NCBI GenBank assembly: GCA_009837815.1
Contig: VXSV01000086.1
Location: 1 to 46,927 of the forward strand
From: Acidimicrobiia bacterium
GTDB taxonomy: Bacteria > Actinomycetota > Acidimicrobiia > Spongiisociales > ZC4RG35
Reading direction: 5' to 3'
DNA: 46,927 nucleotides
The number at the start of each line of letters is the position of its first letter. Within the stretch, counting starts at the first letter, position 1. Below, in pieces: positions 4,082 to 24,688 of the stretch. Position numbers and translations under genes: made by a program. The notes under the pieces were generated by a model. It made no database searches, was not told the origin of the DNA, and saw only the letters and a list, made by a program, of their open reading frames with translations.

Positions 4082-4111
4082 TTGACAAATAGGTCAAGGC
4101 ACACATACACT
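4082..4111 (+). promoter_or_regulatory. Probable promoter with palindromic operator upstream of the ROK gene
   Basis: A consensus -35 TTGACA (4082-4087) is followed 18 bp later by TACACT (4106-4111), which matches the -10 consensus at four of six positions. The -35 box is inside a perfect inverted repeat, TTGAC-N6-GTCAA (4082-4097). A regulator bound there would cover the -35 box. The position, about 80 bp before the ROK start, suggests autoregulation. Confidence 0.45.
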
Positions 4112-4189
4112 CCTATCCACACCAGTCGGAAGCCTGTGGCGCCAAGTTCAGGAAAGACTGGCGAGTGGTACCGAAGGAGATATCCGCAG

Positions 4190-5392
4190 ATGCTTGAGGA
4201 GTCGGGATCCGGGATGCTCCGGCTGCGTAACGGCCAAGTGGTGTTCGACCGGTTCATGGAGGCCGGGACCAAGCCCATCTCCCGCGCCGAGATAGCCCGC
4301 CGGACCGGATTGTCCAAGCCCACAGTAAACACCCTGGTGCTGGATCTCGAAACGGCCGGTGTGGTCAGGTGTAATCCCTCGGCTCAGCCTCACGGTCGGA
4401 TCGGCAGGCCCGCTGCTTCCTATGAAGTGGTGTCGGATGCGGCGCTCGTGGTGGGGGTCGACATGGGCGCCACCAAGACCATTGTCGGTGTTGCCGATTT
4501 GCTGGGAGATGTGATAGCCACTGAGCAGATCGAGACACCTAACCACGCGGTGGCGGCCGTGAATGCTGTGGTAAGCACAGTCCGGCGTTTGCTGGAACGC
4601 CTAGGCGATAGTGGATCGAGGCTGGAAGCAGCCTGCGTGGGAGTTCCCGGCGTCTATCGACCCTCCCACGACAGGGTGGAAATGGCCCCCAACCTCCCCG
4701 GGTTCGTTGACCTTCCGATCAGGGCGGAACTATCGGACCGTCTCGGAATCGATGTGACCATAGAGAACGACGTGAACCTGGCCACGGTCGGGGAGGCGAA
4801 CGCCATGGCTACCGGCGGCAAGCACTTCGCCGCCATCTCCATCGGCACGGGGATCGGTATGGGGATGGTGTTGGAAGGCGCCCTATACCGGGGCGCACAT
4901 GGAGCGGCGGGGGAGATCGGGTCGGTCAAGCTGCCGCGGGTGGGCGGAGAGGTTTTTCACGCCCTCACCCTGGAGGACGTGGCCTCGGCGCCCGCAATAA
5001 GAAAGCTGTTTCACCGTTCGGTGGAGGCGGGGAGGCGTACCGGGCTGGAAGGAGACGCCGACGTTCCGGCCATATTGGCTGCCGCCGCGCGGGGCGACCA
5101 GGCGGCAACCGCCGCCCTCGATATCGCGGCTGACGCGGTTGCCTTCGCCACCTCCTACTTCTGCTGGGTAAATGATCCGACCTTGGTGGTGTTCGGCGGC
5201 GGGGTGGGCTCGAACCCCATCTTCGTGGAGGCGGTGCGGGCTCGGATCGGCCGCTATCTGACCGTCATACCCGAGATGGTCCCCTCCACCTTGGGAGGCC
5301 GGGCTGCGTTCCTGGGCGCGATCTCCACTGCTCTCGCCGAGGTTCGCGGCTCTCTGGTGGCCAAGCGCCTGGCGCGGAGGAGCGAGGGATGA
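4190..5392 (+). CDS. ROK family transcriptional regulator
   Basis: About 400 residues from ATG 4190, chosen because AAGGAG lies about 10 nt upstream; a TTG at 4082 would add 36 unlikely residues inside the promoter. The N-terminus is a winged-helix DNA-binding domain (ISRAEIARRTGLSKPTVNTLV). It is followed by a ROK sugar-kinase-fold domain with the phosphate loop GVDMGATKT, the ENDVN segment and the SIGTGIGMG and GAAGEIG motifs. The cysteine-rich zinc motif of many ROK kinases is missing, which fits a NagC/XylR-type repressor rather than a kinase. Its stop overlaps the next start (ATGA), so it heads the transporter operon and probably senses the imported or processed sugar. Confidence 0.9.
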   Translation: MLEESGSGMLRLRNGQVVFDRFMEAGTKPISRAEIARRTGLSKPTVNTLVLDLETAGVVRCNPSAQPHGRIGRPAASYEVVSDAALVVGVDMGATKTIVGVADLLGDVIATEQIETPNHAVAAVNAVVSTVRRLLERLGDSGSRLEAACVGVPGVYRPSHDRVEMAPNLPGFVDLPIRAELSDRLGIDVTIENDVNLATVGEANAMATGGKHFAAISIGTGIGMGMVLEGALYRGAHGAAGEIGSVKLPRVGGEVFHALTLEDVASAPAIRKLFHRSVEAGRRTGLEGDADVPAILAAAARGDQAATAALDIAADAVAFATSYFCWVNDPTLVVFGGGVGSNPIFVEAVRARIGRYLTVIPEMVPSTLGGRAAFLGAISTALAEVRGSLVAKRLARRSEG

Positions 5393-6660
5393 CCGACCAC
5401 GCCGCCTCCGTGGCGGCCTCGGTCGACGAGGGCGCCCTGGTCAACCTCGCCCGAGAGGCGGTGAGGATCCCCAGCGTCACTCCCGACGAGACGGCCTTCG
5501 CGGAGTGGGTGAGGGACCGGCTTGGGAAAGGCGGCTGGAACGAAGTCAGTTTGCTCGAGGTGGAACCGGGTCGGCCCAATGTCCATGCCTACGCCGGGGA
5601 TTCGGACGGCGGAGGTAGGTCGTTGGTGCTGGCGGGGCACCTCGACACGGTCCATGCCGATGACTGGACCCAGGAGTGGGCGGGCACCGATCGGGCCGAT
5701 CCCTTCAGGGCACACGTCATCGACGGGGAGATCTGGGCGCGGGGGGTGACCGATCAGAAGGGAGGGATCTGTACCATCATCGAGGCTGTCCGCGCCGTCA
5801 GCCGGGCGGGTTACCGGCTGGCCGGATCCCTAACCGGATTGTTTGTCTGCGACGAGGAGTCCGGCCAGCCCGGGAGCGGGCTCTCAGTGGGAATGCGAGC
5901 CGCCATGAGGGACTTGGTGGGAGGTGGCGGGAAAGCGCCTGACTTTGCGGTTTACACCGAGCCCACCACCGGCGCCATCTACACGGCGCAGATGGGATTC
6001 CTGATCGCCGACATCAGCCTGGCGGGGAGGTCGGCCTACTTCGGCACGCCGGAACTCGGGGTGGACGCGCTGGCGGCCGGACACGCTCTCTTGAGTGCCT
6101 TGTGGAGTTACAACGACACGCTGGGCGCGGGAGATGCTCATCCCCTGCTGGGCAAGCGGTTTCTCCTGGTTACCAGGGTGGCGTCGGGGGGAAACATCGC
6201 GGTACCGGGTAAGTTTCAGTTGTCCCTCATCCAGAAGCTGCTGCCCGGCGACGACCTCGATGCCGCGGCCCTGGCTCTCCGGGAGATCACCGAGAGTATC
6301 TCCGAGCAGTTCGAGGTCACCGGCGATGTGGTCTTCTCCGCGCCGAGGGACCACCCTGTCGGGGGCACGCCGGATGAAGTCCCGGCTAATCATCCCGCCG
6401 TCACCGAGTTGGCGGCCGCCATCCAGCGGACCACCGGTCGTCCGCCCCGGATCGAGGGGGCTCCATACTGGTCGGAGAAGCCGCTTCTCCGGGCAGCCGG
6501 CATTCCAGGTGTTTACTTCGCTGCAGGGGATATCGCCACCTGCCATACGCCTTTCGAACGTTTGCCGATCGACCAATTCGTCTCAGTTACCCGGACCCTG
6601 GCGTACTTCATTGCGGCTTGGTGCGGGATCGAGGAAGCAACAGAAAAGGAGGAACCATGA
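5389..6660 (+). CDS. M20 family metallopeptidase/deacylase (ArgE/DapE-like)
   Basis: A 423-residue di-zinc hydrolase. Metal and catalytic residues are visible: H84 and D86 in AGHLDTVH, D122 in GVTDQKGG, and the E156-E157 pair in CDEESG. A lid or dimerisation domain occupies the middle. The family removes acyl groups from N-acyl amino acids or trims dipeptides. It overlaps the ROK stop by 4 bp and the binding-protein start by 4 bp, so it is translationally coupled to the transporter. It may therefore deacylate the imported compound, though the substrate cannot be read from the sequence. Confidence 0.88.
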   Translation: MTDHAASVAASVDEGALVNLAREAVRIPSVTPDETAFAEWVRDRLGKGGWNEVSLLEVEPGRPNVHAYAGDSDGGGRSLVLAGHLDTVHADDWTQEWAGTDRADPFRAHVIDGEIWARGVTDQKGGICTIIEAVRAVSRAGYRLAGSLTGLFVCDEESGQPGSGLSVGMRAAMRDLVGGGGKAPDFAVYTEPTTGAIYTAQMGFLIADISLAGRSAYFGTPELGVDALAAGHALLSALWSYNDTLGAGDAHPLLGKRFLLVTRVASGGNIAVPGKFQLSLIQKLLPGDDLDAAALALREITESISEQFEVTGDVVFSAPRDHPVGGTPDEVPANHPAVTELAAAIQRTTGRPPRIEGAPYWSEKPLLRAAGIPGVYFAAGDIATCHTPFERLPIDQFVSVTRTLAYFIAAWCGIEEATEKEEP

Positions 6661-8861
6661 AAAAAAGAACCATGAACCTCAAACGCAATACGTCCGCAAT
6701 GTGGCTCGTCACCGGCTTGGTGGCGGTGCTCAGCCTGGTTGCGGCGGCTTGCGGCGACGCCGAGGAGGAAACCACCACTACCCGGGCGGCCGCCGCAGCC
6801 ACCACTACCCAGGCACCTGCTACGACACAAGCTCCAAGTGATCCTGTGGCGCCGGTTACTCAGGGGCCGGGTGGTGAGGAGGCTACTCCGTCGGGTGAGA
6901 TTGGTTTGAGTGGTGATGAGGTTGGTGAGGTTCGGTCTGGGGGGTACACGGCGGCTTTGTTGTGGCATACGGCGGGTGCGTTCACTGATGCGGTGAGCCA
7001 GGGCGCTCGGGATGCTTTCGCGGAGTTGGGCGTGGAGGTGATCGCTGAGACCAATGCGCAGTTTGACGCTGCTCAGCAGGCCAATGATGTGGAGACTGTG
7101 TTGGCGCAGGATCCTGACATCATTATCAGTTTGGTGATCGATCCGGTGTCGGGCGCGGAGGCTTTCCGTCCTGCGGTTGACGCCGGGGTGCAGTTGGTGT
7201 TCTTGAGCAATGTGCCCGAGGGCTATGTGCATGGCGTCGACTATGTGGGGGTGGTCACTGATGACTTGGCTGCGATGGGCATGGCGGCTGCGGATCTGTT
7301 GGCTGATGCGTTGGGTGGCTCGGGGAAGGTGGGTTTCATCTTCCATGACGCTGCCTATTACGTGACGAATCAGCGGGATCAGGCGTTCAAGACTTGGATA
7401 GCGGAGCGTTATCCGGGTATTGAGATCGTTTCTTCCCAGGGGTTGGCTGATCCGGCTGCTGCTGAGGAGATCGCTGCTGCGTTGTTGACCCGGAATCCTG
7501 ACCTGAATGGGATCTATGCGCCGTGGTCGGCTGGTCCGGCTGACGGGGTGTTGGCTGCTTTGCGGGCGGCGGGCGCTTCGGATGTGGCGGTGGTGACCCT
7601 GGATCTGGACACCAATGTGTCGCTGGACCTGGTGGAAGGCGGGAACATCGTCGGTATCGCGGCGGATGAGGCCTATGAGCTGGGGCGGACCATGGCGCTG
7701 GAAGGCGCCTACGGGCTGTTGGGCAAGGATGCGCCTCCGTTCACGGTGGTGCCGGCCATCAAGGTCACCGCGGACAACATCGTGGACGCCTATCGGCAAT
7801 CATTGGCCACCGACCCACCCGCAGAAGTCATGGAAGCACTCGGTGAGTCCGTGCCGATGGCGCCGGTTACTCAGGGGCCGGGTGGTGAGGAGGCTACTCC
7901 GTCGGGTGAGATTGGTTTGAGTGGTGATGAGGTTGGTGAGGTTCGGTCTGGGGGGTACACGGCGGCTTTGTTGTGGCATACGGCGGGTGCGTTCACTGAT
8001 GCGGTGAGCCAGGGCGCTCGGGATGCTTTCGCGGAGTTGGGCGTGGAGGTGATCGCTGAGACCAATGCGCAGTTTGACGCTGCTCAGCAGGCCAATGATG
8101 TGGAGACTGTGTTGGCGCAGGATCCTGACATCATTATCAGTTTGGTGATCGATCCGGTGTCGGGCGCGGAGGCTTTCCGTCCTGCGGTTGACGCCGGGGT
8201 GCAGTTGGTGTTCTTGAGCAATGTGCCCGAGGGCTATGTGCATGGCGTCGACTATGTGGGGGTGGTCACTGATGACTTGGCTGCGATGGGCATGGCGGCT
8301 GCGGATCTGTTGGCTGATGCGTTGGGTGGCTCGGGGAAGGTGGGTTTCATCTTCCATGACGCTGCCTATTACGTGACGAATCAGCGGGATCAGGCGTTCA
8401 AGACTTGGATAGCGGAGCGTTATCCGGGTATTGAGATCGTTTCTTCCCAGGGGTTGGCTGATCCGGCTGCTGCTGAGGAGATCGCTGCTGCGTTGTTGAC
8501 CCGGAATCCTGACCTGAATGGGATCTATGCGCCGTGGTCGGCTGGTCCGGCTGACGGGGTGTTGGCTGCTTTGCGGGCGGCGGGCGCTTCGGATGTGGCG
8601 GTGGTGACCCTGGATCTGGACACCAATGTGTCGCTGGACCTGGTGGAAGGCGGGAACATCGTCGGTATCGCGGCGGATGAGGCCTATGAGCTGGGGCGGA
8701 CCATGGCGCTGGAAGGCGCCTACGGGCTGTTGGGCAAGGATGCGCCTCCGTTCACGGTGGTGCCGGCCATCAAGGTCACCGCGGACAACATCGTGGACGC
8801 CTATCGGCAATCATTGGCCACCGACCCACCCGCAGAAGTCATGGAAGCACTCGGCGGATAA
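6657..8861 (+). CDS. Sugar-type ABC transporter substrate-binding lipoprotein with two tandem binding domains
   Basis: About 734 residues, twice the usual size, starting at ATG 6657 behind AGGAGG and overlapping the deacylase stop. A lipoprotein signal peptide ends at C32 (VAAAC) and a Thr/Ala-rich linker follows. Two complete type-I periplasmic binding domains (Peripla_BP_4, ribose/xylose-binding type) occupy roughly residues 65-396 and 402-733. They are identical in amino acids and apparently in DNA, and are joined in frame by a short junction. Each copy begins with a Gly/Glu-rich linker and ends with a VTADNIVDAY segment. Codon use in the first two thirds of each copy is richer in T-ending codons than the neighbours. 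A real fused double receptor is most likely, but an assembly artefact must be excluded. Confidence 0.88.
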   Translation: MKKRTMNLKRNTSAMWLVTGLVAVLSLVAAACGDAEEETTTTRAAAAATTTQAPATTQAPSDPVAPVTQGPGGEEATPSGEIGLSGDEVGEVRSGGYTAALLWHTAGAFTDAVSQGARDAFAELGVEVIAETNAQFDAAQQANDVETVLAQDPDIIISLVIDPVSGAEAFRPAVDAGVQLVFLSNVPEGYVHGVDYVGVVTDDLAAMGMAAADLLADALGGSGKVGFIFHDAAYYVTNQRDQAFKTWIAERYPGIEIVSSQGLADPAAAEEIAAALLTRNPDLNGIYAPWSAGPADGVLAALRAAGASDVAVVTLDLDTNVSLDLVEGGNIVGIAADEAYELGRTMALEGAYGLLGKDAPPFTVVPAIKVTADNIVDAYRQSLATDPPAEVMEALGESVPMAPVTQGPGGEEATPSGEIGLSGDEVGEVRSGGYTAALLWHTAGAFTDAVSQGARDAFAELGVEVIAETNAQFDAAQQANDVETVLAQDPDIIISLVIDPVSGAEAFRPAVDAGVQLVFLSNVPEGYVHGVDYVGVVTDDLAAMGMAAADLLADALGGSGKVGFIFHDAAYYVTNQRDQAFKTWIAERYPGIEIVSSQGLADPAAAEEIAAALLTRNPDLNGIYAPWSAGPADGVLAALRAAGASDVAVVTLDLDTNVSLDLVEGGNIVGIAADEAYELGRTMALEGAYGLLGKDAPPFTVVPAIKVTADNIVDAYRQSLATDPPAEVMEALGG
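6847..7843 (+). repeat. Direct repeat, copy 1 (997 bp, within binding-protein gene)
   Basis: First copy of a 997-bp tandem direct repeat. No base differences from copy 2 were found, and translations in several frames on both strands agree. The repeat period is 1011 bp, exactly 337 codons, so the duplication stays in frame. A 14-bp unique junction (7844-7857) separates the copies. Confidence 0.93.
7858..8854 (+). repeat. Direct repeat, copy 2 (997 bp)
   Basis: Second copy of the repeat at 6847-7843. Identity stops one codon before the stop codon region: copy 1 continues into the junction peptide, copy 2 into the stop codon. Confidence 0.93.
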
Positions 8862-8903: not shown

Positions 8904-9911
8904 ATGAGAGTCCATGTCCGCGCCGGCGCCCGGTTGAAGCGGGCATGGGCTCGCCGGAGCGAAGATGGCGGGTATCGACAGTACGTGGTCTATCTGGCCT
9001 TCGTCTCGATACTTGCGGTCTTCGCTCTGATGCTGTGGGACGACGGCTTCCTGAGTTGGTCGAACCTTCTAAACATCGGCCGTCAAGCTGCTCCGATCGC
9101 GGTGATGGCGGTGGGCATGGCTTTCGCGCTGGCGTCGGCCGAGATAGATCTCTCGATCGGATCCACCGTGGCGCTCTCGTCGCTGGTCGCGGCGGCGGCG
9201 GTCGGCAATTACGGGTTCTTCATCGGGGCCCTGGCCGCGGTGGGGGTGGGAGCAGCGGTCGGGCTGGCGAACGGCCTGATCACGGTCAAGGTGAGGATCC
9301 CCTCCTTCCTGGTGACCTTGGGGACGCTGGGGATCATCAGCGGCATCGCCCGCAACATGAACAACCTGCAGTCCATGCCGATCCGAAGCGACGCCTTCTC
9401 CGCGCTGTTCGGCGCCGGGTCGCTGGGGCCCATCTCATCGCTGGTGATCTGGACCGCCATCGTCTTTGCCATCGGTCATTTCGCGCTGCACCATCTGCGT
9501 TGGGGGAGGCATGTTCTCGCCACCGGCGCCAACCGGGCGTCGGCCAAGGCGGCCGGTCTCAGCACCGACCGGATCAGGATAAGCGCTCTCATGGTCAGTT
9601 CGGTGGCTGCCTCCTTTGCCGGGGTGCTGCTGGCCGGACGGCTGGCCATCGGTCGCCACGATCTGGGCGAGAACGACCTGCTCACCGTGATCGCCGCAGT
9701 GGTGATCGGCGGGACCAGCCTGTTCGGCGGCCGCGCGTCGGTCGCCGGCGCGGTGACGGGGGCTCTGATCATGGCGATGCTCAACAATGGACTGATACTC
9801 ATGGGCCTCGAGGTGGCGGACCAGTTGATCGCCCGGGGTCTCATCATCATCGTGGCGGTGGCGCTCAGCATGAGGACGCCGTCGGAAAGTGTGGGTGACG
9901 ATGTTCCTTAG
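8904..9911 (+). CDS. Sugar ABC transporter permease (RbsC/BPD_transp_2 family)
   Basis: A 335-residue integral membrane protein with about eight to ten hydrophobic segments. The family signature is present: ASAEIDLSIGS in the first half and VVIGGTSLFGG near residue 270, the coupling loop to the ATPase. A polar N-terminal extension of about 25 residues precedes the first helix. It lies 42 bp after the duplicated binding-protein gene and overlaps the next gene by 11 bp. As the only permease in the operon it probably works as a homodimer. Confidence 0.92.
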   Translation: MRVHVRAGARLKRAWARRSEDGGYRQYVVYLAFVSILAVFALMLWDDGFLSWSNLLNIGRQAAPIAVMAVGMAFALASAEIDLSIGSTVALSSLVAAAAVGNYGFFIGALAAVGVGAAVGLANGLITVKVRIPSFLVTLGTLGIISGIARNMNNLQSMPIRSDAFSALFGAGSLGPISSLVIWTAIVFAIGHFALHHLRWGRHVLATGANRASAKAAGLSTDRIRISALMVSSVAASFAGVLLAGRLAIGRHDLGENDLLTVIAAVVIGGTSLFGGRASVAGAVTGALIMAMLNNGLILMGLEVADQLIARGLIIIVAVALSMRTPSESVGDDVP

Positions 9912-11106
9912 TTCTCTGATCGCCAGGAACCGGGCCTTCCTGGAGGCATCGGTCCAACTCCATCAGGACAACTTGATCCCTGCCAACAGTTACGTGCTCG
10001 ATCTGGATGCGGTGGAGGCGAATACCCGCCACATGGCGGCCGAGGCGCACCGCCGACGTCTGAAGGTGTATGCGATGAGCAAGCAGGTTGGCCGAGCCCC
10101 GGGGGCGCTCCGGGCGATCACCGACGGGGGCGCGGACGGCTATGTGGCGGTGGACATGGCATGCGCACGGCCCATTGTGGCCAACGGCCACCGGCTGGGC
10201 AACCTGGGCCACCTCGTTCAGGTGCCGAGAGCCGAGGCGGGCGAGGCAGCCAGTCTTGCGCCCGAGTATTGGACAATCTTTTCCCGGAACAAGGCGCTGG
10301 AGGCTTCCCAGGCCGTGTCCGGAGGCGACCGCACGCAACCGGTTCTCCTCCGGGTGTGGGATGAAGGAGATGTCTTCTATCCGGGACACGAGGGAGGCTT
10401 CCACGTCGACGAATTGTCGGCTGCGATCGAGTTCGTCAACCGTCTGGATGGGCTGACGTTTGCCGGGTTGACCACCTTTCCAGCCCTCCTGTATGACGCG
10501 GAGACCAGAAGGGTGAAGCCCACGCCCAACGTGGAAACTCTGGCTCGCGGCGTGGAGGTCGCTCTTGGACGCTTGGGAACGGGCTTTCCTATAGAGGTGA
10601 ATGCCCCCGGCACTACTTCCACTGCGGTGCTCGGGCTCCTGGCGGAGATGGGCGCCACCCAGATCGAACCGGGACACGGACTGACCGGCACCACGCCCCT
10701 CCATGCCGTGGAAGACCTTCCCGAACAGCCCGCCGTTCTCTACCTGACCGAAATTGCCCACCTGCATCAGGACGTGCCGCTCTGCTTCGGCGGGGGACTC
10801 TATGTGGATCCTGTCTTCGACCCCTATCAAACCAAAGTGGTGGCGGCCGGGGACCCCGAGGAGGTCGGCCTGGAGCCGGTCCGGATCGATATGCCGGACC
10901 CGGCGGGCATCGACTACTACGCCCGGCTCCATCCCCCGGAGGGTCGAAGGCTTCAAGAGGGAGACACTGTGATCGCGGGCTTTCGGATCCAAGCCTTTGT
11001 CACTCGGTCGTTGGTGGTGGGAGTGAAGGGCGTCAGCGTCGGGAATCCGGTGGTGTCGGGCATATGGAACGTGGACGGCGCACCGGTCGATTGGGGTCGC
11101 CGATGA
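9901..11106 (+). CDS. yhfX: YhfX-type PLP-dependent protein (alanine racemase-like fold)
   Basis: About 401 residues beginning MFLSSL, like the E. coli YhfX N-terminus as I recall it. ATG 9901 was therefore preferred over the GTG at 9889. The likely PLP lysine is K61 in YAMSKQVGR. Other family landmarks are GHLVQVP, the GLTTFPALL segment, IEPGHGLTGT and the C-terminal FVTRSLVVGV stretch. The fold is that of alanine racemase and D-threonine aldolase. The biochemical role of YhfX is not established to my knowledge; racemisation or deamination of an amino compound is inferred. Its place between the permease and ATPase genes ties it to the imported substrate. Confidence 0.82.
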   Translation: MFLSSLIARNRAFLEASVQLHQDNLIPANSYVLDLDAVEANTRHMAAEAHRRRLKVYAMSKQVGRAPGALRAITDGGADGYVAVDMACARPIVANGHRLGNLGHLVQVPRAEAGEAASLAPEYWTIFSRNKALEASQAVSGGDRTQPVLLRVWDEGDVFYPGHEGGFHVDELSAAIEFVNRLDGLTFAGLTTFPALLYDAETRRVKPTPNVETLARGVEVALGRLGTGFPIEVNAPGTTSTAVLGLLAEMGATQIEPGHGLTGTTPLHAVEDLPEQPAVLYLTEIAHLHQDVPLCFGGGLYVDPVFDPYQTKVVAAGDPEEVGLEPVRIDMPDPAGIDYYARLHPPEGRRLQEGDTVIAGFRIQAFVTRSLVVGVKGVSVGNPVVSGIWNVDGAPVDWGRR

Positions 11107-11870
11107 CCGCGCCGGCGCTCTCGGTGCGGAACATGTCGAAGGCGTTTCGAGCCGTGCAGGCCCTCGAGGATGTCTCCCTGGACATCCATCGCGGCCAGGT
11201 GACGGCGCTCCTTGGTGACAACGGTGCCGGGAAATCCACGCTGGTCAAGTGCATAGCGGGGGTATACCAGCCCGACTCGGGCACCGTGAGCATCGACGGC
11301 GAGACGCATCGCATCTCGTCTCCGGATGTGGCTCGGACCCTGGGCGTGGAGACGGTGCACCAGAACCTCTCGCTGATCGACAGCCTCAATGTGGTGGAGA
11401 ACCTGTTTCTCAACCGTGAGTACACACGGGGCGGGTCTTTCGGGTCCCGCATAGGTCTCCTCCACAAGAGGAGGATGTCCCGTGAGTGCCAGGCCACCCT
11501 GGCGCGGCTCGGGATCTCCATCCCCTCGCTGCGAAAGCCGGTGGGCCTTCTCTCTGGGGGCCAGCGTCAGGCCATCGCCATCGGGAGAGCGGTGGCCTGG
11601 GGACAGAAAATCGTTCTCCTGGACGAACCTGCCGCGGCCCTGGGCGTAGAACAGGCACAGAGGGTGCTCGATCTGATCGTGGCGCTCCGGGATGCGGACG
11701 TCGCGGTTCTGCTGATCACCCACAACATGGACCGCGTCACCCAGGTCTGCGACGGCGCGGTGGTCCTGCGCCGGGGCCGCAAAGCCGCCGAAGTGAAAGT
11801 CGATCAGGTCACCAAGGATGATCTCGTGGCATTCATCACGGGGGCCAAGACCACCGACAGCGGGACGTGA
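11103..11870 (+). CDS. Sugar ABC transporter ATP-binding protein (single ATPase domain)
   Basis: About 255 residues from ATG 11103, overlapping the preceding stop (ATGA). All ABC motifs are present: Walker A GDNGAGKST, signature LSGGQRQA, Walker B VLLDEPAA and the H-loop LITHN. The Q-loop is VHQNLSL. It has one nucleotide-binding domain, unlike the double-domain RbsA/XylG type, so it should dimerise as in the FrcA type. With the permease and the duplicated binding protein it forms a complete importer. Confidence 0.93.
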   Translation: MTAPALSVRNMSKAFRAVQALEDVSLDIHRGQVTALLGDNGAGKSTLVKCIAGVYQPDSGTVSIDGETHRISSPDVARTLGVETVHQNLSLIDSLNVVENLFLNREYTRGGSFGSRIGLLHKRRMSRECQATLARLGISIPSLRKPVGLLSGGQRQAIAIGRAVAWGQKIVLLDEPAAALGVEQAQRVLDLIVALRDADVAVLLITHNMDRVTQVCDGAVVLRRGRKAAEVKVDQVTKDDLVAFITGAKTTDSGT

Positions 11871-15863: not shown

Positions 15864-16814
15864 TTAGCGGTAGCCACCGCCTCTTCTCAGGCTGTCCAGG
15901 GTAACGGCGATGATCAGTATCGCGCCGCGCACCACCGACTGCCAGTAGATCTGCACCTGGAGGAGAATCAAGCCGTTCTGGACGACCCCGATTATCAAGA
16001 GCCCTAGGAGGGTCCCCAATAGGCCCCCCCGGCCTCCGCTCAGGGCGATGCCACCCAGCAACACCGCGGCGATGATGTCCAGTTCGGCGCCGTTGAGGGC
16101 GCTTGGCAAGGCCGTGCCGCTCTGGGAGGTGAGCATCAGGCCCGCCAACCCCGCCAGGCAGGCCTGGGCCACGTAAGTCCAGCCTCGCAGGCGGTCGACC
16201 CTGATACCGACGTTGCGACATGCCTCGCTGTTGCCGCCTATGGCGTAGAGGTGGTTGCCTGCCACAGTGAACCGCATGAAGCACATTCCCATCACGACCA
16301 CCGCCAGGAACAGCCAAACGGTTATCGGGGCTCCGAGCCAGGACCCCCTCCCCAGTTCGCTCCAGGCGTTGACGCCGATCACGATGTTGTCGCCCCCGGT
16401 GGACACGAACGCCAGGCCCCGGTAGAAGAGCAGAGTTCCCAGCGTGGCGATGATCGGGTTGATCCGGAACTTGACGATCAGCAGGGCGTTGAAGGACCCC
16501 AGGACCCCGGCGGCGGCTATGCCCAGCACGCCGACCAGGACGCTGTTGACCTCCAAGGTGATCAGGCTCGCCGTGACCATGCCGGCCACAGCTGCCACGG
16601 CGGCCATGGAAAGATCCAGACCTCCGGCGATCATCACCACCGTCAAACCGATGGCGATCAAGCCTCTGATGGAGATGGCCTGCCCGATGTTGATGAAGTT
16701 GCGGGTTGTGAAGAAGAACTCGGACTGCCAACTGAAAAGGGCAATGAGCATCAGCAGTGTGATGAACAGTCCGATCAGGGTCCAGTTGTCCTGCCTCTTC
16801 AGAGCCGAGATCAT
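15864..16814 (-). CDS. Sugar ABC transporter permease (RbsC family), second system
   Basis: About 316 residues from ATG 16814, chosen because it overlaps the ATPase stop as ATGA; a GTG at 16883 would run back far into that gene. There are eight or more hydrophobic helices. The family motifs are IAGGLDLSMAA in the first half and VLLGGIALSGGRGG in the coupling loop, close to those of the ribose permease family. It is the last gene of a minus-strand operon of binding protein, ATPase and permease. Sequence differs clearly from the permease at 8904, so the two systems are not recent copies. Confidence 0.92.
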   Translation of the reverse strand: MISALKRQDNWTLIGLFITLLMLIALFSWQSEFFFTTRNFINIGQAISIRGLIAIGLTVVMIAGGLDLSMAAVAAVAGMVTASLITLEVNSVLVGVLGIAAAGVLGSFNALLIVKFRINPIIATLGTLLFYRGLAFVSTGGDNIVIGVNAWSELGRGSWLGAPITVWLFLAVVVMGMCFMRFTVAGNHLYAIGGNSEACRNVGIRVDRLRGWTYVAQACLAGLAGLMLTSQSGTALPSALNGAELDIIAAVLLGGIALSGGRGGLLGTLLGLLIIGVVQNGLILLQVQIYWQSVVRGAILIIAVTLDSLRRGGGYR

Positions 16815-17605
16815 TGGGCGGAACCATTGTTCATCTCGCCCGCTCCGTTCCGGATATGAGGTGGGGCAACTCCGGTTATCCACCCGATGATCTGGTTGGT
16901 GGTCGTCTCTGACGAGGGTGCGTAGGCCCAGAGTTTGCCTTGGCGGAGCACTGCGATGCGATCGGTTATGTCCAAGATGTCGCTCAGGTCGTGGGTGATC
17001 ACCACGACCGCTTTGTCTTGTCGGCGCATGCTGGTGATCAGGTGGTGGACTTGCTGGGTCTGTTCCACTCCCAGGGCGGCCGTGGGTTCGTCCAGAAGAA
17101 GGATGTTGCCTCCCATGGCGATTGCCCGCGAAAGGGCAACCGCTTGTCTTTGGCCTCCCGACAGCAACTCGACATCGGTCTTCTGAGACGCCAAGCTGAT
17201 GTTCAGGTCCTCGAGCATCACGTTGGCGTCGCGTTCCATCTTGCGGCGGTCCATGAAGTACCCGAAGCGGCGAGGTTCCCGTCCCAAATAGATGTTGTGA
17301 GCCACAGATCTGGTTTCCACCAGCGCCAGGTCCTGATAGACGGTGGCGATTCCCAGAGCTTGGGCGTCGGCGGGGCGGTTGATGGTTACCGGCCGCCCCT
17401 GGTATTCGAAAGAACCCTCGTCGGCGTGATAGTTTCCCGACAGGATCTTGATCAGCGTGGATTTGCCGGCGCCGTTGTCACCCAGCAGACCCACGACTTC
17501 TCCTGCACGCAGGTCCAGACTCACATCCACCAGAGCTTTGACTTGGCCGAACGCCTTGGAGACATTCGACAAACGCATCAGCGGCGGTTTGCTCGGTTCA
17601 CCCAT
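16811..17605 (-). CDS. Sugar ABC transporter ATP-binding protein, second system
   Basis: About 264 residues from ATG 17605. Walker A GDNGAGKST, Q-loop VYQDLAL, signature LSGGQRQA, Walker B LLLDEPTAA and the H-loop VITHD are all intact. It is a single-domain ATPase of the FrcA/sugar type, clearly related to the one at 11103. A 38-nt stem-loop separates it from the upstream binding-protein gene, and its stop overlaps the permease start, so ATPase and permease are translationally coupled. Confidence 0.93.
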   Translation of the reverse strand: MGEPSKPPLMRLSNVSKAFGQVKALVDVSLDLRAGEVVGLLGDNGAGKSTLIKILSGNYHADEGSFEYQGRPVTINRPADAQALGIATVYQDLALVETRSVAHNIYLGREPRRFGYFMDRRKMERDANVMLEDLNISLASQKTDVELLSGGQRQAVALSRAIAMGGNILLLDEPTAALGVEQTQQVHHLITSMRRQDKAVVVITHDLSDILDITDRIAVLRQGKLWAYAPSSETTTNQIIGWITGVAPPHIRNGAGEMNNGSAQ

Positions 17606-17631
17606 ATCTCGTTGTCCATGCGGTTGTGGAC

Positions 17632-17669
17632 GTGCCCGGTGGTCGCCATGGCGGCGGGCCACCGGGCAC
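17632..17669 (-). other. Stem-loop between binding-protein gene and ATPase gene
   Basis: A perfect 11-bp inverted repeat, GTGCCCGGTGG and CCACCGGGCAC, encloses a 16-nt loop that itself contains the palindrome CGCCATGGCG. It sits 22 bp after the binding-protein stop on the minus strand. There is no T-tract in the direction of transcription. It is likely an mRNA-stabilising or partial-termination element that lets the binding protein be made in excess. Confidence 0.55.
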
Positions 17670-17690
17670 AATCCTATTTCGTTTTCGCTT

Positions 17691-19715
17691 CTACCCCGGG
17701 TAGAGGTCGAAGACGTTGTCTCTGGTTACCGGCGAGACGGAGGGGATGAGCCGTTCGGGAACGGTCTTGCCCTCGATCAGGTCCACGATGGCGGGCACCA
17801 GGTAGGTGCCGTAGCGCTCGGGGAAGTAGGAGATGGTGGCCTTGAACACCGACTCGTCGTCGGAGCGCTGCCGCAGATCCACCAGCGCCTCGTCGGAGGC
17901 GCCCAGGCTGGCGGCGGCCGCGTGACCGAGGTAGCCGCTCTGCTCCAAGGCCAGTGCGCAGTCCACGCCGGGCTGGTCGCTGTGTCCGAAGCAGAGAACG
18001 TGTTTGGCGTCGGGATTGCCGGTCGCCCAGGTGGTCACGTTGGGGAGCGTGTCGGTCAGACCCTCGGTGGGGATGTCGTGGATGTTCTCGTCCGGGATGG
18101 CGAAGCTCTCTCTGACGCCGTCCCTGGCCCCGTCGGCGCGGGCCTTGTGGACGGGCACGTCCGGCGTCCACACCAAGAGCAAATGGGTGTCCTCGGCCGC
18201 CCAACCCTGCTCCTGGGCGAAGGCGGCCAGGTACCGCCCCGCTTCCAGAGCGGCGTTGTAGTTGTCGGGGCCGAACGCCACGCATCCGGGGTGGGGTCCG
18301 TCGTAGGAGACACAGGGGATCCCGGCGTCTTGGAAGATCCCGGCGATGAGTTCCTCGGTGCCGGCGATCCAGTTGGCGAAGATCACTCCGTCGACCTGTT
18401 GGGTGACCAGCAGGTTGGAGCACTCCACGGTCCGCTCCTGGTCGTAGGCGTTGTCGCAGTAGACGATCTCCACGCCCATCTCGGCGGCGACCGCGTTGAT
18501 GTTGTCGGTGACGCTGTCTGTGAACGGAATACCCGACAGGCCGTCGCCATAACCGATCCTGAACGCTCCGGAAGCTTCCCGAATAACGGCTTGGTACTCG
18601 TCCTCGTCACCCATGGCTGTTTCGTCCAACTCGCCTCCCGGATACAACTGCTCAACGTTGTCCCTGGTCACCGGCGAGACGGAGGGGATGAGCCGTTCGG
18701 GAACGGTTTTGCCCTCGATCAGGTCCACGATGGCGGGCACCAGGTACTGGCCGTAGCGCTCGGGGAAGTAGCTGATGGTGGCCTTGAACACCGACTCGTC
18801 GTCCGAGCGGCCCCTCAGGTCCACCAGGGCTTCGTCGGAGGCGCCCAGGCTGGCGGCGGCGGCGTTCCCCAGGAAGCCACTCTGCTCCAAGGCCAGTGCG
18901 CAGTCCACGCCGGGCTGGTCGCTGTGTCCGAAGCAGAGAACGTGTTTGGCGTCGGGATTGCCGGTCGCCCAGGTGGTCACGTTGGGGAGCGTGTCGGTCA
19001 GACCCTCGGTGGGGATGTCGTGGATGTTCTCGTCCGGGATGGCGAAGCTCTCTCTGACGCCGTCCCTGGCCCCGTCGGCGCGGGCCTTGTGGACGGGCAC
19101 GTCCGGCGTCCACACCAAGAGCAAATGGGTGTCCTCGGCCGCCCAACCCTGCTCCTGGGCGAAGGCGGCCAGGTACCGCCCCGCTTCCAGAGCGGCGTTG
19201 TAGTTGTCGGGGCCGAACGCCACGCATCCGGGGTGGGGTCCGTCGTAGGAGACACAGGGGATCCCGGCGTCTTGGAAGATCCCGGCGATGAGTTCCTCGG
19301 TGCCGGCGATCCAGTTGGCGAAGATCACTCCGTCGACCTGTTGGGTGACCAGCAGGTTGGAGCACTCCACGGTCCGCTCCTGGTCGTAGGCGTTGTCGCA
19401 GTAGACGATCTCCACGCCCATCTCGGCGGCGACCGCGTTGATGTTGTCGGTGACGCTGTCTGTGAACGGAATACCCGACAGGCCGTCGCCATAACCGATC
19501 TTCCACGGCTGCTCGGCCGGGCGGATCATGGCCTCGTAGGGACCGCCGGGTTCCTCGGGTTCTTCCTCGGGAACCTCTTCCGGGGCCTCCTCAACGGGGG
19601 CGGCCGTGGTGGCGGGGGCGGCGGTCGTGGCGGGCGCCGCCTCTTCCTCGTCTTCCCCGCAGGCAGCCACCAGCAGGGCGATGATCGCAATTCCAAGTAT
19701 CAGCTTGCGTGACAT
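17691..19715 (-). CDS. Sugar-type ABC transporter substrate-binding lipoprotein with two tandem domains, second system
   Basis: About 674 residues from ATG 19715 with AAAGG 8-12 nt upstream. A lipoprotein signal peptide ends LLVAAC, followed by an acidic Pro/Ala/Thr linker. Two type-I periplasmic binding domains follow, each starting at IGYGDGLSGIPF and ending near PVTRDNV. They are joined by a bridging segment rich in Asp and Glu. The duplication period is 942 bp (314 codons). 621 bp are identical between copies, while the C-terminal part of each domain carries scattered changes. This looks like a true duplication partly homogenised by gene conversion. The domain sequence is unrelated in detail to that of the protein at 6657. 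The 147 bp upstream of the start hold no gene; I see no clear consensus promoter there. Confidence 0.88.
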   Translation of the reverse strand: MSRKLILGIAIIALLVAACGEDEEEAAPATTAAPATTAAPVEEAPEEVPEEEPEEPGGPYEAMIRPAEQPWKIGYGDGLSGIPFTDSVTDNINAVAAEMGVEIVYCDNAYDQERTVECSNLLVTQQVDGVIFANWIAGTEELIAGIFQDAGIPCVSYDGPHPGCVAFGPDNYNAALEAGRYLAAFAQEQGWAAEDTHLLLVWTPDVPVHKARADGARDGVRESFAIPDENIHDIPTEGLTDTLPNVTTWATGNPDAKHVLCFGHSDQPGVDCALALEQSGFLGNAAAASLGASDEALVDLRGRSDDESVFKATISYFPERYGQYLVPAIVDLIEGKTVPERLIPSVSPVTRDNVEQLYPGGELDETAMGDEDEYQAVIREASGAFRIGYGDGLSGIPFTDSVTDNINAVAAEMGVEIVYCDNAYDQERTVECSNLLVTQQVDGVIFANWIAGTEELIAGIFQDAGIPCVSYDGPHPGCVAFGPDNYNAALEAGRYLAAFAQEQGWAAEDTHLLLVWTPDVPVHKARADGARDGVRESFAIPDENIHDIPTEGLTDTLPNVTTWATGNPDAKHVLCFGHSDQPGVDCALALEQSGYLGHAAAASLGASDEALVDLRQRSDDESVFKATISYFPERYGTYLVPAIVDLIEGKTVPERLIPSVSPVTRDNVFDLYPG
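17938..18558 (-). repeat. Direct repeat, copy A (621 bp identical core)
   Basis: Identical by eye to 18880-19500, with a period of 942 bp. It encodes the N-terminal two thirds of the second binding domain. Beyond its lower edge (17703-17937) the similarity to 18645-18879 continues, but with scattered substitutions. Confidence 0.9.
18880..19500 (-). repeat. Direct repeat, copy B (621 bp identical core)
   Basis: Partner of copy A, encoding the N-terminal two thirds of the first binding domain. The exact identity ends sharply on both sides, which suggests a conversion tract. Confidence 0.9.
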
Positions 19716-21259: not shown

Positions 21260-22366
21260 ATGACAGAGCGAGCAGATTCTTCGGACCGTGCACCTCTGAG
21301 GGTGGCGGTGGTCGGCGCCGGGTGGTGGGCGGTGGAAAATCACCTTCCGGTGTTCGCATCCCGGCCCGATGTGGAGATACGGGCCGTGTGTCGGAAGGGA
21401 GCGGTCGAGGCCGAGCGGGTGGCGGAGCGGTTCGGTGTACCCATTGCCACAGAGGATCACGAACTCCTGCCGTGGGACGAACTGGATGCGGTGGCGGTCT
21501 CTTCGCCGCACAGTTTTCACCACACCCATGCCATGGCCGCCTTGGACCGGGGTCTGCATGTGCTGTGCGAGAAGCCGTTGGCGATAACCGCCGCCGATGC
21601 CTTCGAGATGGTGAGGAGGGCCGCGGACCAGGAGGTGGTCCTCCTGGTGCCCCATGGATGGCAGTTCCTCCCCCAGGCGGTGGCGGCCCGCGACTGGATA
21701 AGAGGAGGGCGAATCGGCCGTCTGGAGCATGTCGTCGCTCAGATGGCCTCTCCGGCGCGGGGGCTGTTCTCCGGCGAGGAGGACTCTATCCCCGGCGCCG
21801 AGAGCCCGCCGGAACCTTCTACCTGGGTGGGGGAGGACGGCGGGTACGCCTACGGGCAGTTGAGCCACCTGTATTCGCTGGTCTTCTGGCTAACCGGCCT
21901 CATTCCCGCCGATGCAATGGGCGCTGTGTCTCCAGGACCGGCGGGAAGCGATCTGTATGACGCCTTTTTGACCACCACTCGGCAGGGTCCGCTGGTGTCG
22001 GTCTCCGGTGGGGCCGGAGTTCCGACCTCCCAGCGTCACCACATGGAGGTGCGGGTATTCGGCGCCGAAGGTGCGGTGATAGTCGATCTGGAGCGGGACC
22101 GTATAGAGATAGTCCGCCAGGACGGGGATGATTACTCGTTCCCGTTGATGAGAGGCGCCGCCATCTATCCTGGGACCTTGCCGGTTCACGCCTTCTGCGA
22201 CCTGGCTCTAGGGTATCCGGATGCGGTCAACCATGGCGATCCGGTCGCTTCCGCCCTGGGGATTGCGGCGATCGAAGCTGCCCTTCTCTCTGCGCGGACC
22301 CGCCGCGCGGAGGCGGTATCTCCTGCGGTGATCGAAGCCGAGGCTTGGGGACTCAAGCTGGACTAG
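21260..22366 (+). CDS. Gfo/Idh/MocA family oxidoreductase
   Basis: A 368-residue NAD(P)-dependent dehydrogenase. The Rossmann motif VVGAGWWAVENH is at residues 16-27 and the EKPL catalytic loop lysine follows at about residue 100. A C-terminal alpha/beta domain completes the family layout. Such enzymes oxidise sugars, inositols or sugar acids. It is divergent from the amidohydrolase, and its 3' end overlaps the convergent isomerase gene by 14 bp. With the next genes it suggests a sugar or polyol degradation set. Confidence 0.9.
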   Translation: MTERADSSDRAPLRVAVVGAGWWAVENHLPVFASRPDVEIRAVCRKGAVEAERVAERFGVPIATEDHELLPWDELDAVAVSSPHSFHHTHAMAALDRGLHVLCEKPLAITAADAFEMVRRAADQEVVLLVPHGWQFLPQAVAARDWIRGGRIGRLEHVVAQMASPARGLFSGEEDSIPGAESPPEPSTWVGEDGGYAYGQLSHLYSLVFWLTGLIPADAMGAVSPGPAGSDLYDAFLTTTRQGPLVSVSGGAGVPTSQRHHMEVRVFGAEGAVIVDLERDRIEIVRQDGDDYSFPLMRGAAIYPGTLPVHAFCDLALGYPDAVNHGDPVASALGIAAIEAALLSARTRRAEAVSPAVIEAEAWGLKLD

Positions 22367-23213
22367 CCAGGGCCTCGCGGACCTGGTTGCGAACGTATAT
22401 GGTCTCGCACAGGTTGTCAACCCGGTCGCAGGCCCATTTCTGCATCCAGACGTACTCGGCGGCAATGAACCCGTCGTAGTCCATGGCAATCAACTTGCGC
22501 ACCAGTCGTTTGATGTCGATGGTTCCTTCATAAGAGATGGCCTGCATCACCCCGTCGGCGGCTTGCCGGACCTGGTGGTGCCTGGAAATGGGCAAGAGCA
22601 TCTCGATGCGTTCCTGGGAGATTCCCTGATAGATGAAATGCGCGAGGTCGAGACAGACTTTCAACCCCGGTACCTCCGCCACGAATTGAGCTGTCACTTC
22701 AGGAGTCTCGGTTATGGAGCCGATGTGCGGCTCGAATCCAAGTTCCAGACCGGCCTCCTCGGCTACCTGTACCCTCCAGGCCAGTTCCTCTGTTGCCAGA
22801 CCCCAGTCCCGATCGGTACGGCTGTCCTCGAAGGGGCAGCCCGGCAGGATGGTGAGCCCCGGAGACTCCAGCACCAAGGTGAACTCGATGAACCGGCGGA
22901 AGTCATCTCGGGCTTGGCGGCGGACCTCGGCCGAGGGATTGTTGGGCGCCGCCGACTGAACATCGAAGACAGGTCTGAAGTCGGTGATCACGATGGGAAA
23001 GACGTCAGCCACTACTAACCCGGCGTCGTCGGTCATGGCCTTGATCCGCCGGCCGGCGCCGGTGGGGTCGGCTATGACGTCCTCGGCGGAGTTGTTGGGG
23101 TTTCCCGAGAACACGGCTACGTCCACCGCATCGAATTCCAACCCCTTGATCAGGGCGAGGTTCACGTCGTACGGCAGGAGCGGGAAGGAATAATCGGCGC
23201 ACGAAAGCCGCAT
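22353..23213 (-). CDS. Sugar phosphate isomerase/epimerase family protein (xylose isomerase-like TIM barrel)
   Basis: About 286 residues from ATG 23213, which has AAAGGA upstream; the frame extends to 23297 without support. The AP_endonuc_2/xylose-isomerase-like barrel is recognisable from GFEPHIGS (metal-binding Glu and His), VCLDLAHF and the terminal GFIAAEYVWM segment. The family includes IolE, IolI, hydroxypyruvate isomerase and tagatose epimerases. It is divergent from the isomerase-like gene at 23270 across only 56 bp, which probably holds the promoters of both. Confidence 0.83.
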   Translation of the reverse strand: MRLSCADYSFPLLPYDVNLALIKGLEFDAVDVAVFSGNPNNSAEDVIADPTGAGRRIKAMTDDAGLVVADVFPIVITDFRPVFDVQSAAPNNPSAEVRRQARDDFRRFIEFTLVLESPGLTILPGCPFEDSRTDRDWGLATEELAWRVQVAEEAGLELGFEPHIGSITETPEVTAQFVAEVPGLKVCLDLAHFIYQGISQERIEMLLPISRHHQVRQAADGVMQAISYEGTIDIKRLVRKLIAMDYDGFIAAEYVWMQKWACDRVDNLCETIYVRNQVREALASPA

Positions 23214-23269
23214 GGCGGTCGTTCCTTTCGTCGGCGGGATGTGGTCTGTTATTAAAGTTAGGCCAACCG

Positions 23270-24688
23270 ATGAGCCGCCCCTCTCCAGACCGCCCACCCC
23301 GCATCGGACAACTGTCCGTTTACTTCGGGCTGTTCGACGAGGCGATGCCCCCCGAGTTCCGCCGGGACCGGGAGGCTTTGGCTCATCGATTCACCGAGTT
23401 CCTCTCGGCCGGAGGGGATGTCGTGTATCCCGGTGTGGTGGACTCCGAGGAGGCCGGGCGCCGGGCAAACCGGGTATTCGCTGCCGAAGAAGTCGAGGTG
23501 GTGGTCTTCGTTCCCGCCATGGCCGCTCCCCCCAGCTACGGCTGGGAGGCGATCTCGGGGTTGGACGTCCCGGTGATCTCGGTGGCCGCCCAGGAACTGA
23601 CTTCCATACCCGACGTGTACACCACCGAGGAGGGGACCCAGCGGAGCACCCTGGTGGGTCTGGTGATGTTCACCAACGTCATGGCCAGGGAAGGAAGACC
23701 CATGGTGACCCTGGTAGGTCGATTGGAGTCGGCGGAATTCGCGGCTGAGGTGGCGGAGACAGTCCGGGCGGCGGCCTTGGCAAACCGACTCAAGGGTTCG
23801 CGGGTGGGAGCGATCGGAGCTCCGATCGGGGGGTATCTGGATGTTGAGGCCACCCCCGACGAGGTGGCTCGACTGGGTCTGCAGATGGTGTCTATTTCGA
23901 GGGAGGAACTGAACACCGCCTTTGCAGAAGCCTCGGCGGAGGGCGTGAAAGGACTTGCCGACGGTCTGCGGGACAGGTTTGAGACGAGTCGAACGTCCGA
24001 TGAGATCCTTCACCGTTCGGCCCGGCTGGCCCTGGCCCTCCAGGACATCTGCCAACGGAACGGCCTGGCGGGCGGGACGGTGAACTGTCATGGGGACATG
24101 TTCCGCTGGAATCCCGAAGTAGGCATCACCGCCTGTCTCGGGGTTACATGTCTAACCGAGGCGGGAACGCCGCTTTCCTGCACCGGCGACCTTCCGGCCG
24201 GCATCGCCCTGGTAATCGGGAAGGCGGTGGCGGGCGGTTCCCTGTACTGCGAGGTCTACGGGGTCGACTTCGAAGGGGATTGGGTGCTTTTGGCCAACGG
24301 CGGCGAGAGCGATGTGTCGATGGCCGATCCGACCCGCCCCATCACCCTCCTGCCCGAGGACCACTACATGGGGGTGGGCGGCCCCGGCACCGCGATCGTG
24401 TTCTCCCTGCCCACCGGACCCGCCACCCTGCTCAGCATGTCTCCGATTGCGGGCGCCGAGGGGGGCTGGGCGCTGGTGGTGGGTGAGGGTGAGATCATCG
24501 GCTCGCGGCACGAGGCGATCGAGGGACCGAACGGGATGTTCCGCTTCTCCTCGGGTCCGGCCCCCGAGGCCTTCCAGCGGTTCTGCAACGCCGGCGCCAC
24601 CCACCACAGCGTGCTGACTCCCGGCCATAACCTCCGGACGCTTCAACTGATGGCGGAGTGGATGGGCTTCGAGGTCCGGGCGGTCTGA
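23270..24688 (+). CDS. L-fucose/L-arabinose isomerase family protein
   Basis: 472 residues resembling the L-fucose and L-arabinose isomerase family. The N-terminal domain carries FVPAMAAPPSYGWEAISGLDVPVI. The central part has VNCHGDMFRWNPEVGITACLGVT, and a late segment ends THHSVLTPGH, providing the His ligand expected near the C-terminus. These enzymes interconvert aldoses and ketoses using Mn2+. Conservation of all catalytic residues cannot be confirmed by eye, so isomerase activity is inferred. Neighbouring dehydrogenase and dehydratase genes support a sugar pathway. Confidence 0.72.
   Translation: MSRPSPDRPPRIGQLSVYFGLFDEAMPPEFRRDREALAHRFTEFLSAGGDVVYPGVVDSEEAGRRANRVFAAEEVEVVVFVPAMAAPPSYGWEAISGLDVPVISVAAQELTSIPDVYTTEEGTQRSTLVGLVMFTNVMAREGRPMVTLVGRLESAEFAAEVAETVRAAALANRLKGSRVGAIGAPIGGYLDVEATPDEVARLGLQMVSISREELNTAFAEASAEGVKGLADGLRDRFETSRTSDEILHRSARLALALQDICQRNGLAGGTVNCHGDMFRWNPEVGITACLGVTCLTEAGTPLSCTGDLPAGIALVIGKAVAGGSLYCEVYGVDFEGDWVLLANGGESDVSMADPTRPITLLPEDHYMGVGGPGTAIVFSLPTGPATLLSMSPIAGAEGGWALVVGEGEIIGSRHEAIEGPNGMFRFSSGPAPEAFQRFCNAGATHHSVLTPGHNLRTLQLMAEWMGFEVRAV

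Follow-up and report, generated by a model that had tools for sequence, protein, structure and literature searches.

SBP-A, SBP-B and their surroundings

The window, by which we mean the whole stretch of 46,927 nucleotides of Acidimicrobiia DNA analysed here, carries an operon with the order ROK-family regulator, M20 hydrolase, SBP-A, permease, YhfX-like enzyme and ATPase (Table 1). SBP-A is one open reading frame, from the ATG at 6657 to the stop at 8861, with zero internal stops. A single signal peptide with its lipobox is followed by a spacer rich in Thr, Ala and Pro and then by two Peripla_BP_4 domains (238.8 bits in two stretches, against a curated Pfam cut-off of 35.1). Direct comparison of the two repeat copies gives complete identity at a period of 1011 bp, or 337 codons, and just outside the repeat identity drops to 19/60 on the left and 14/60 on the right; an origin of this repeat by chance is excluded. 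The earlier note had described a perfect in-frame tandem repeat behind one signal peptide, encoding a receptor whose lipid anchor carries two complete binding domains. Both statements are borne out by the 997/997 identical bases at that period, the intact frame, the single lipobox and the two Peripla_BP_4 matches. A search of the genome (2.34 Mb in 156 contigs) found no third copy of the repeat, and the protein did not match any NCBIfam equivalog at its cut-off. AlphaFold, run on 17 sequences, gave a poor model of SBP-A (mean pLDDT 52).

Table 1. Features of the SBP-A and SBP-B loci in the window
Feature	Position	Strand	Basis
ROK-family regulator of the SBP-A operon	4082..5392	+	Pfam PF00480
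M20 family hydrolase of the SBP-A operon	5389..6660	+	Pfam PF01546
SBP-A, fused two-domain receptor lipoprotein gene, 734 aa	6657..8861	+	Translation, exact repeat, Peripla_BP_4 twice
SBP-A lipobox LVAAAC, Cys32 codon	6750-6752	+	Read from translation
SBP-A repeat copy 1 = binding domain 1	6847..7843	+	997/997 bases = copy 2
SBP-A 14-bp unique junction, part of inter-domain linker, LGESVPMAPVTQGP	7844..7857	+	Homologous linkers in G004, G070, G038, G075, G077
SBP-A repeat copy 2 = binding domain 2	7858..8854	+	997/997 bases = copy 1
ABC permease, CUT2 type, AraH/RbsC-like	8904..9911	+	Pfam PF02653
YhfX-like alanine-racemase-fold enzyme	9889..11106	+	Pfam PF21279, PF01168
ABC ATPase, single ABC domain	11064..11870	+	Pfam PF00005
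ABC permease beside SBP-B	15864..16883	-	Pfam PF02653
ABC ATPase adjoining SBP-B	16811..17671	-	Pfam PF00005
SBP-B, fused two-domain receptor lipoprotein, unrelated to SBP-A	17691..19715	-	Peripla_BP_4 twice
SBP-B exact run, 621 bp, period 942	17938-18558 = 18880-19500	-	Copy comparison

The translation of SBP-A has the export signal and lipid-anchor cysteine that characterize CUT2-type receptors, and genes for the cognate permease (PF02653) and ATPase (PF00005) lie downstream, as is also typical of them. The ATPase contains only one ABC domain, and the transporter is therefore likely to be homodimeric. More distant receptors are found near sugar isomerase/epimerase and Gfo/Idh/MocA genes; the SBP-A operon has the M20 hydrolase and the YhfX-like enzyme. 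The open-access literature yielded nothing usable on YhfX in connection with alanine racemase.

Codon usage switches within each repeat copy. In the first 250 codons (6847-7600 and 7858-8610), third positions are 34% T, 48% G and 0% A; T accounts for 10% of third positions in the last 80 repeat codons and for 11-16% in the genes adjoining SBP-A. This odd switch is common to most relatives of the order and absent in G069 and G070.

A family search of the genome revealed a second double receptor, SBP-B, located 9 kb from SBP-A and absent from the earlier note. Its two domains are 98% identical over 257 residues, with copies that differ at the 3' end. Comparison of SBP-B with SBP-A gave no convincing similarity (best E 0.006).

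Assembly and the tandem arrangement in relatives

In the window's genome, the terminal 55 bases of the tuf contigs C109 and C101 are exactly the same, an indication that short reads were assembled in a de Bruijn graph with k=55. Both EF-Tu gene copies of this genome (G000) are cut at the ends of C101 and C109 (L106, L105), with the 55-base overlap. An assembler working at k=55 is unable to phase a 1-kb repeat, and may collapse the copies into a loop that is then output twice. Zero differences and a count of exactly two in the window are consequently unproven by its sequence alone. The earlier note had considered a repeat collapsed or expanded in assembly as the main alternative to a real duplication. 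This caution stands for the exact identity and the copy number, which may stem from graph collapse and loop unrolling; it does not stand for the tandem arrangement itself, which is genuine. That at least two SBP-A copies lie in tandem is not an artefact, a conclusion that rests on the sequences of relatives.

Two-domain homologues were sought in related genomes, as the earlier note had suggested, and two SBP-A domains in one frame are present in G038, G075 and G077. In G075 and G077 both domains are identical in sequence, as in the window. The two complete domains of G038 (MAG p16x65bins.30) differ at 83 of 981 bases but at only 5 of 327 residues, and therefore do not represent one contig piece written twice. 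With dS 0.383, dN 0.0097 and dN/dS of about 0.025 between them (Nei-Gojobori), both are under strong purifying selection. In G004 and G070, the upstream contig carries signal peptide, domain 1 and linker and ends exactly 55 bases into domain 2, and another contig begins exactly 55 bases before linker and stop diverge. A k=55 graph breaks in this way at a tandem repeat, so that at least two copies must be present in these genomes. Matching contig breaks flank the repeat on both sides in G051 and on its downstream side in G045, and in G074 a gap of Ns starts at the repeat start. Tandem domains of 1 kb are masked or obscured in short-read genomes; several relatives break exactly at the SBP-A repeat, and counts of such proteins are therefore probably too low. 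In a different clade of the class, a contig stretch of Acidimicrobiaceae SB0675_bin_16 (L045, 1-1082) starts 55 bases before a fork and reads end of domain, linker, whole domain and stop; its linker is unlike that of the window's order.

A single SBP-A domain was found in six relatives, G001, G002, G003, G058, G069 and G078, of which G002 is a PacBio-Illumina hybrid assembly (bin76, OM1 clade; PMC5649159). Single-domain forms also occur in other parts of the class, in G710 (one contig) and G734 (six contigs). One- and two-domain states are intermixed among close relatives, although some of the short-read singles could be collapsed doubles. With single-domain forms in six relatives, the second SBP-A domain is dispensable, which counts against the interpretation proposed below.

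These data make it very improbable that the assembler wrote a single 1-kb domain twice or joined two loci. The k=55 short-read origin of the window's genome, the exactly identical copies in the window, G075 and G077, and the six single-domain relatives would all suit such an error. However, the junction is an in-frame linker with homologous forms in other genomes, the G038 domains differ at 83 bases, the forks in G004 and G070 need at least two copies, and the window's genome has no other locus with an SBP-A domain. For the SBP-A family as a whole, an assembly artefact is largely refuted. The double-domain architecture is conserved, patchy and recurrent, and demonstrably real in relatives.

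Origin and homogenization of the domains

SBP-A junctions in the order consist of LGE, a few residues and then APVT(Q/R)GP, where the gene end reads LGG-stop. This common form suggests that the domains were fused in frame once, in an ancestor, and that one copy was later lost repeatedly. The L045 junction (LGMAVPAAEAP) looks separate from it. The earlier note had proposed a very recent duplication or, alternatively, copies kept identical by gene conversion. The first proposal is not supported in that form: the same junction class recurs in another family of the order and the G038 domains stand at a dS of 0.38, so that the architecture does not go back to a single recent event; the last homogenization of the window's SBP-A domains may nevertheless be recent.

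The second proposal fared better, in both receptor families. In G038, the two domains agree at 32 consecutive polymorphic sites (shuffle p 5e-5), and the pair carries 23 private alleles, a pattern that resembles gene conversion. SBP-B is double in G003, G004 and G005, with domains that have diverged (dN about 0.08) and show 88-92% and 96-97% protein identity to domain 1 of the window's SBP-B; the G001 contig is broken inside the gene, and G002 and G068 have SBP-B with one domain. In the relatives, the two domains can be told apart at sixty diagnostic sites. At 46 of the 60, domain 1 of the window carries the domain-2 letter, returning to domain-1 letters at the 3' end, so that it has largely been overwritten by domain 2. 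Exchange may run both ways, because five diagnostic sites have the domain-1 letter in both window copies. We take the overwriting to be biological, since the replaced stretch would be too different for ordinary bubble removal.

Operons of the alphaproteobacteria Aminobacter and Nitratireductor share with that of SBP-A the order ROK, M20, receptor(s), permease, alanine racemase (YhfX-like) and ATPase, and SBP-A is about 57% identical to their receptor 1. They have two separate receptor genes, whose products differ at 130-148 of about 323 residues, whereas SBP-A is one fused ORF; Ruegeria has the same operon with one receptor. In Rhizobium sp. NIBRBAC000502774 (L087, about 6071-6821), the second receptor matches residues 6-229 only, has no gene annotated and looks broken.

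The identical gene order, with two receptors in a row, raises the question of whether the fused pair derives from two such adjacent genes that were homogenized later. In the tree, however, the domains of each genome cluster together within Acidimicrobiia, and alphaproteobacterial receptor 1 groups with receptor 2 in an older pair outside this clade. Sister Acidimicrobiia and Ruegeria carry a single receptor, and no Acidimicrobiia operon was found with a second domain that groups with alphaproteobacterial receptor 2. Complete homogenization could mask such an ancestry, but we regard descent from the alphaproteobacterial pair as improbable.

Proposed role and comparison with known systems

We estimate at about 0.72 the probability that SBP-A is a free-standing lipoprotein receptor of a CUT2-type importer in which an in-frame duplication, homogenized by recombination, has placed two domains of the same specificity on one lipid anchor. 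Homologous recombination between the domains, through gene conversion and unequal exchange, would keep them alike and alter their copy number. Both domains would serve the permease of the operon, and the second would give each anchor more binding sites, and a higher local concentration of them, close to the permease.

A duplication that is neutral and transient, with copies arising and then vanishing by recombination without functional benefit, would leave the patchy occurrence seen among close relatives, and tandem repeats are unstable. We nevertheless consider this unlikely. The G038 domains have been kept at dN/dS of about 0.025 over dS 0.38, although conversion from a copy under selection would in part imitate so low a ratio. 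Moreover, the architecture recurs. A third unrelated fused double receptor, with an exact run of 956 bp at a period of 981, was found in a genome from another family of the window's order (L123, G047:C43, contig 21843-23598), and our Peripla_BP_4 survey of the order gives, as a lower bound, at least three unrelated double receptors (SBP-A, SBP-B and that of G047). Reading of SBP_bac_1 receptor matches in ten genomes detected no fused doubles. Long open frames in G023, G024, G049, G126 and G137, considered as possible doubles, proved not to be doubles.

A single double receptor would be a curiosity; recurrence in at least three unrelated receptors, together with visible conversion between domains, makes a testable pattern. 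Beyond the duplication of SBP-A itself, it is tempting to speculate, with distinctly less assurance, that in the Acidimicrobiia examined here in-frame domain duplication is a recurrent and reversible means of changing receptor valency, with recombination determining how many copies there are and preserving their similarity. Several unrelated CUT2 receptors might then exist in one- and two-domain (perhaps more) versions among close relatives, a suggestion that we hold just as tentatively. Natural one- and two-domain versions in related species provide ready-made pairs for testing the effect of a second site.

SBP-A resembles ordinary CUT2 (RbsB-like, Peripla_BP_4) receptors in its domain family, its signal peptide and the BPD_transp_2 permease and ABC ATPase encoded alongside, but these receptors have one domain per polypeptide. 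More than one binding domain per polypeptide or complex is a feature that SBP-A shares with GlnPQ and OpuA; fusion to the permease is one that it lacks. A search of the open-access literature for free-standing tandem receptors found nothing usable.

In GlnPQ, tandem substrate-binding domains that differ in ligand specificity are fused to the permease (PMC8025302). As in SBP-A, two binding domains follow each other in one polypeptide with a short linker. Unlike GlnPQ, SBP-A is a separate lipoprotein with domains that are the same, and its permease is encoded by its own ORF. Specialization of this kind, with domains binding different ligands or binding with different affinities, could be argued from the more diverged SBP-B domains of G003-G005 (dN about 0.08) and from the 130-148 differences between alphaproteobacterial receptors 1 and 2. 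At the sequence level, however, differing specificities of the GlnPQ type are not apparent in SBP-A; because its domains are identical in the window and only five residues apart in G038, we think that specialization is highly improbable.

OpuA brings two equal domains close to one translocator, which results in a millimolar local concentration and apparent cooperativity (PMC11065425). Two equal binding domains for one translocator are probably also what SBP-A provides; each OpuA domain is fused to a permease subunit, whereas both SBP-A domains lie on one lipid-anchored chain. OpuA is the better analogy, and by this analogy the second SBP-A domain would increase, for each anchor, both the capacity for binding and the local concentration of receptor, the two domains working like the multiple equal domains of OpuA and not broadening specificity as in GlnPQ. 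Importers with tandem binding domains, in the descriptions that we found, carry them as fusions to the permease; SBP-A is a free lipoprotein with two domains that are nearly identical. Such a free two-domain lipoprotein separates valency from specificity and from permanent tethering to the channel.
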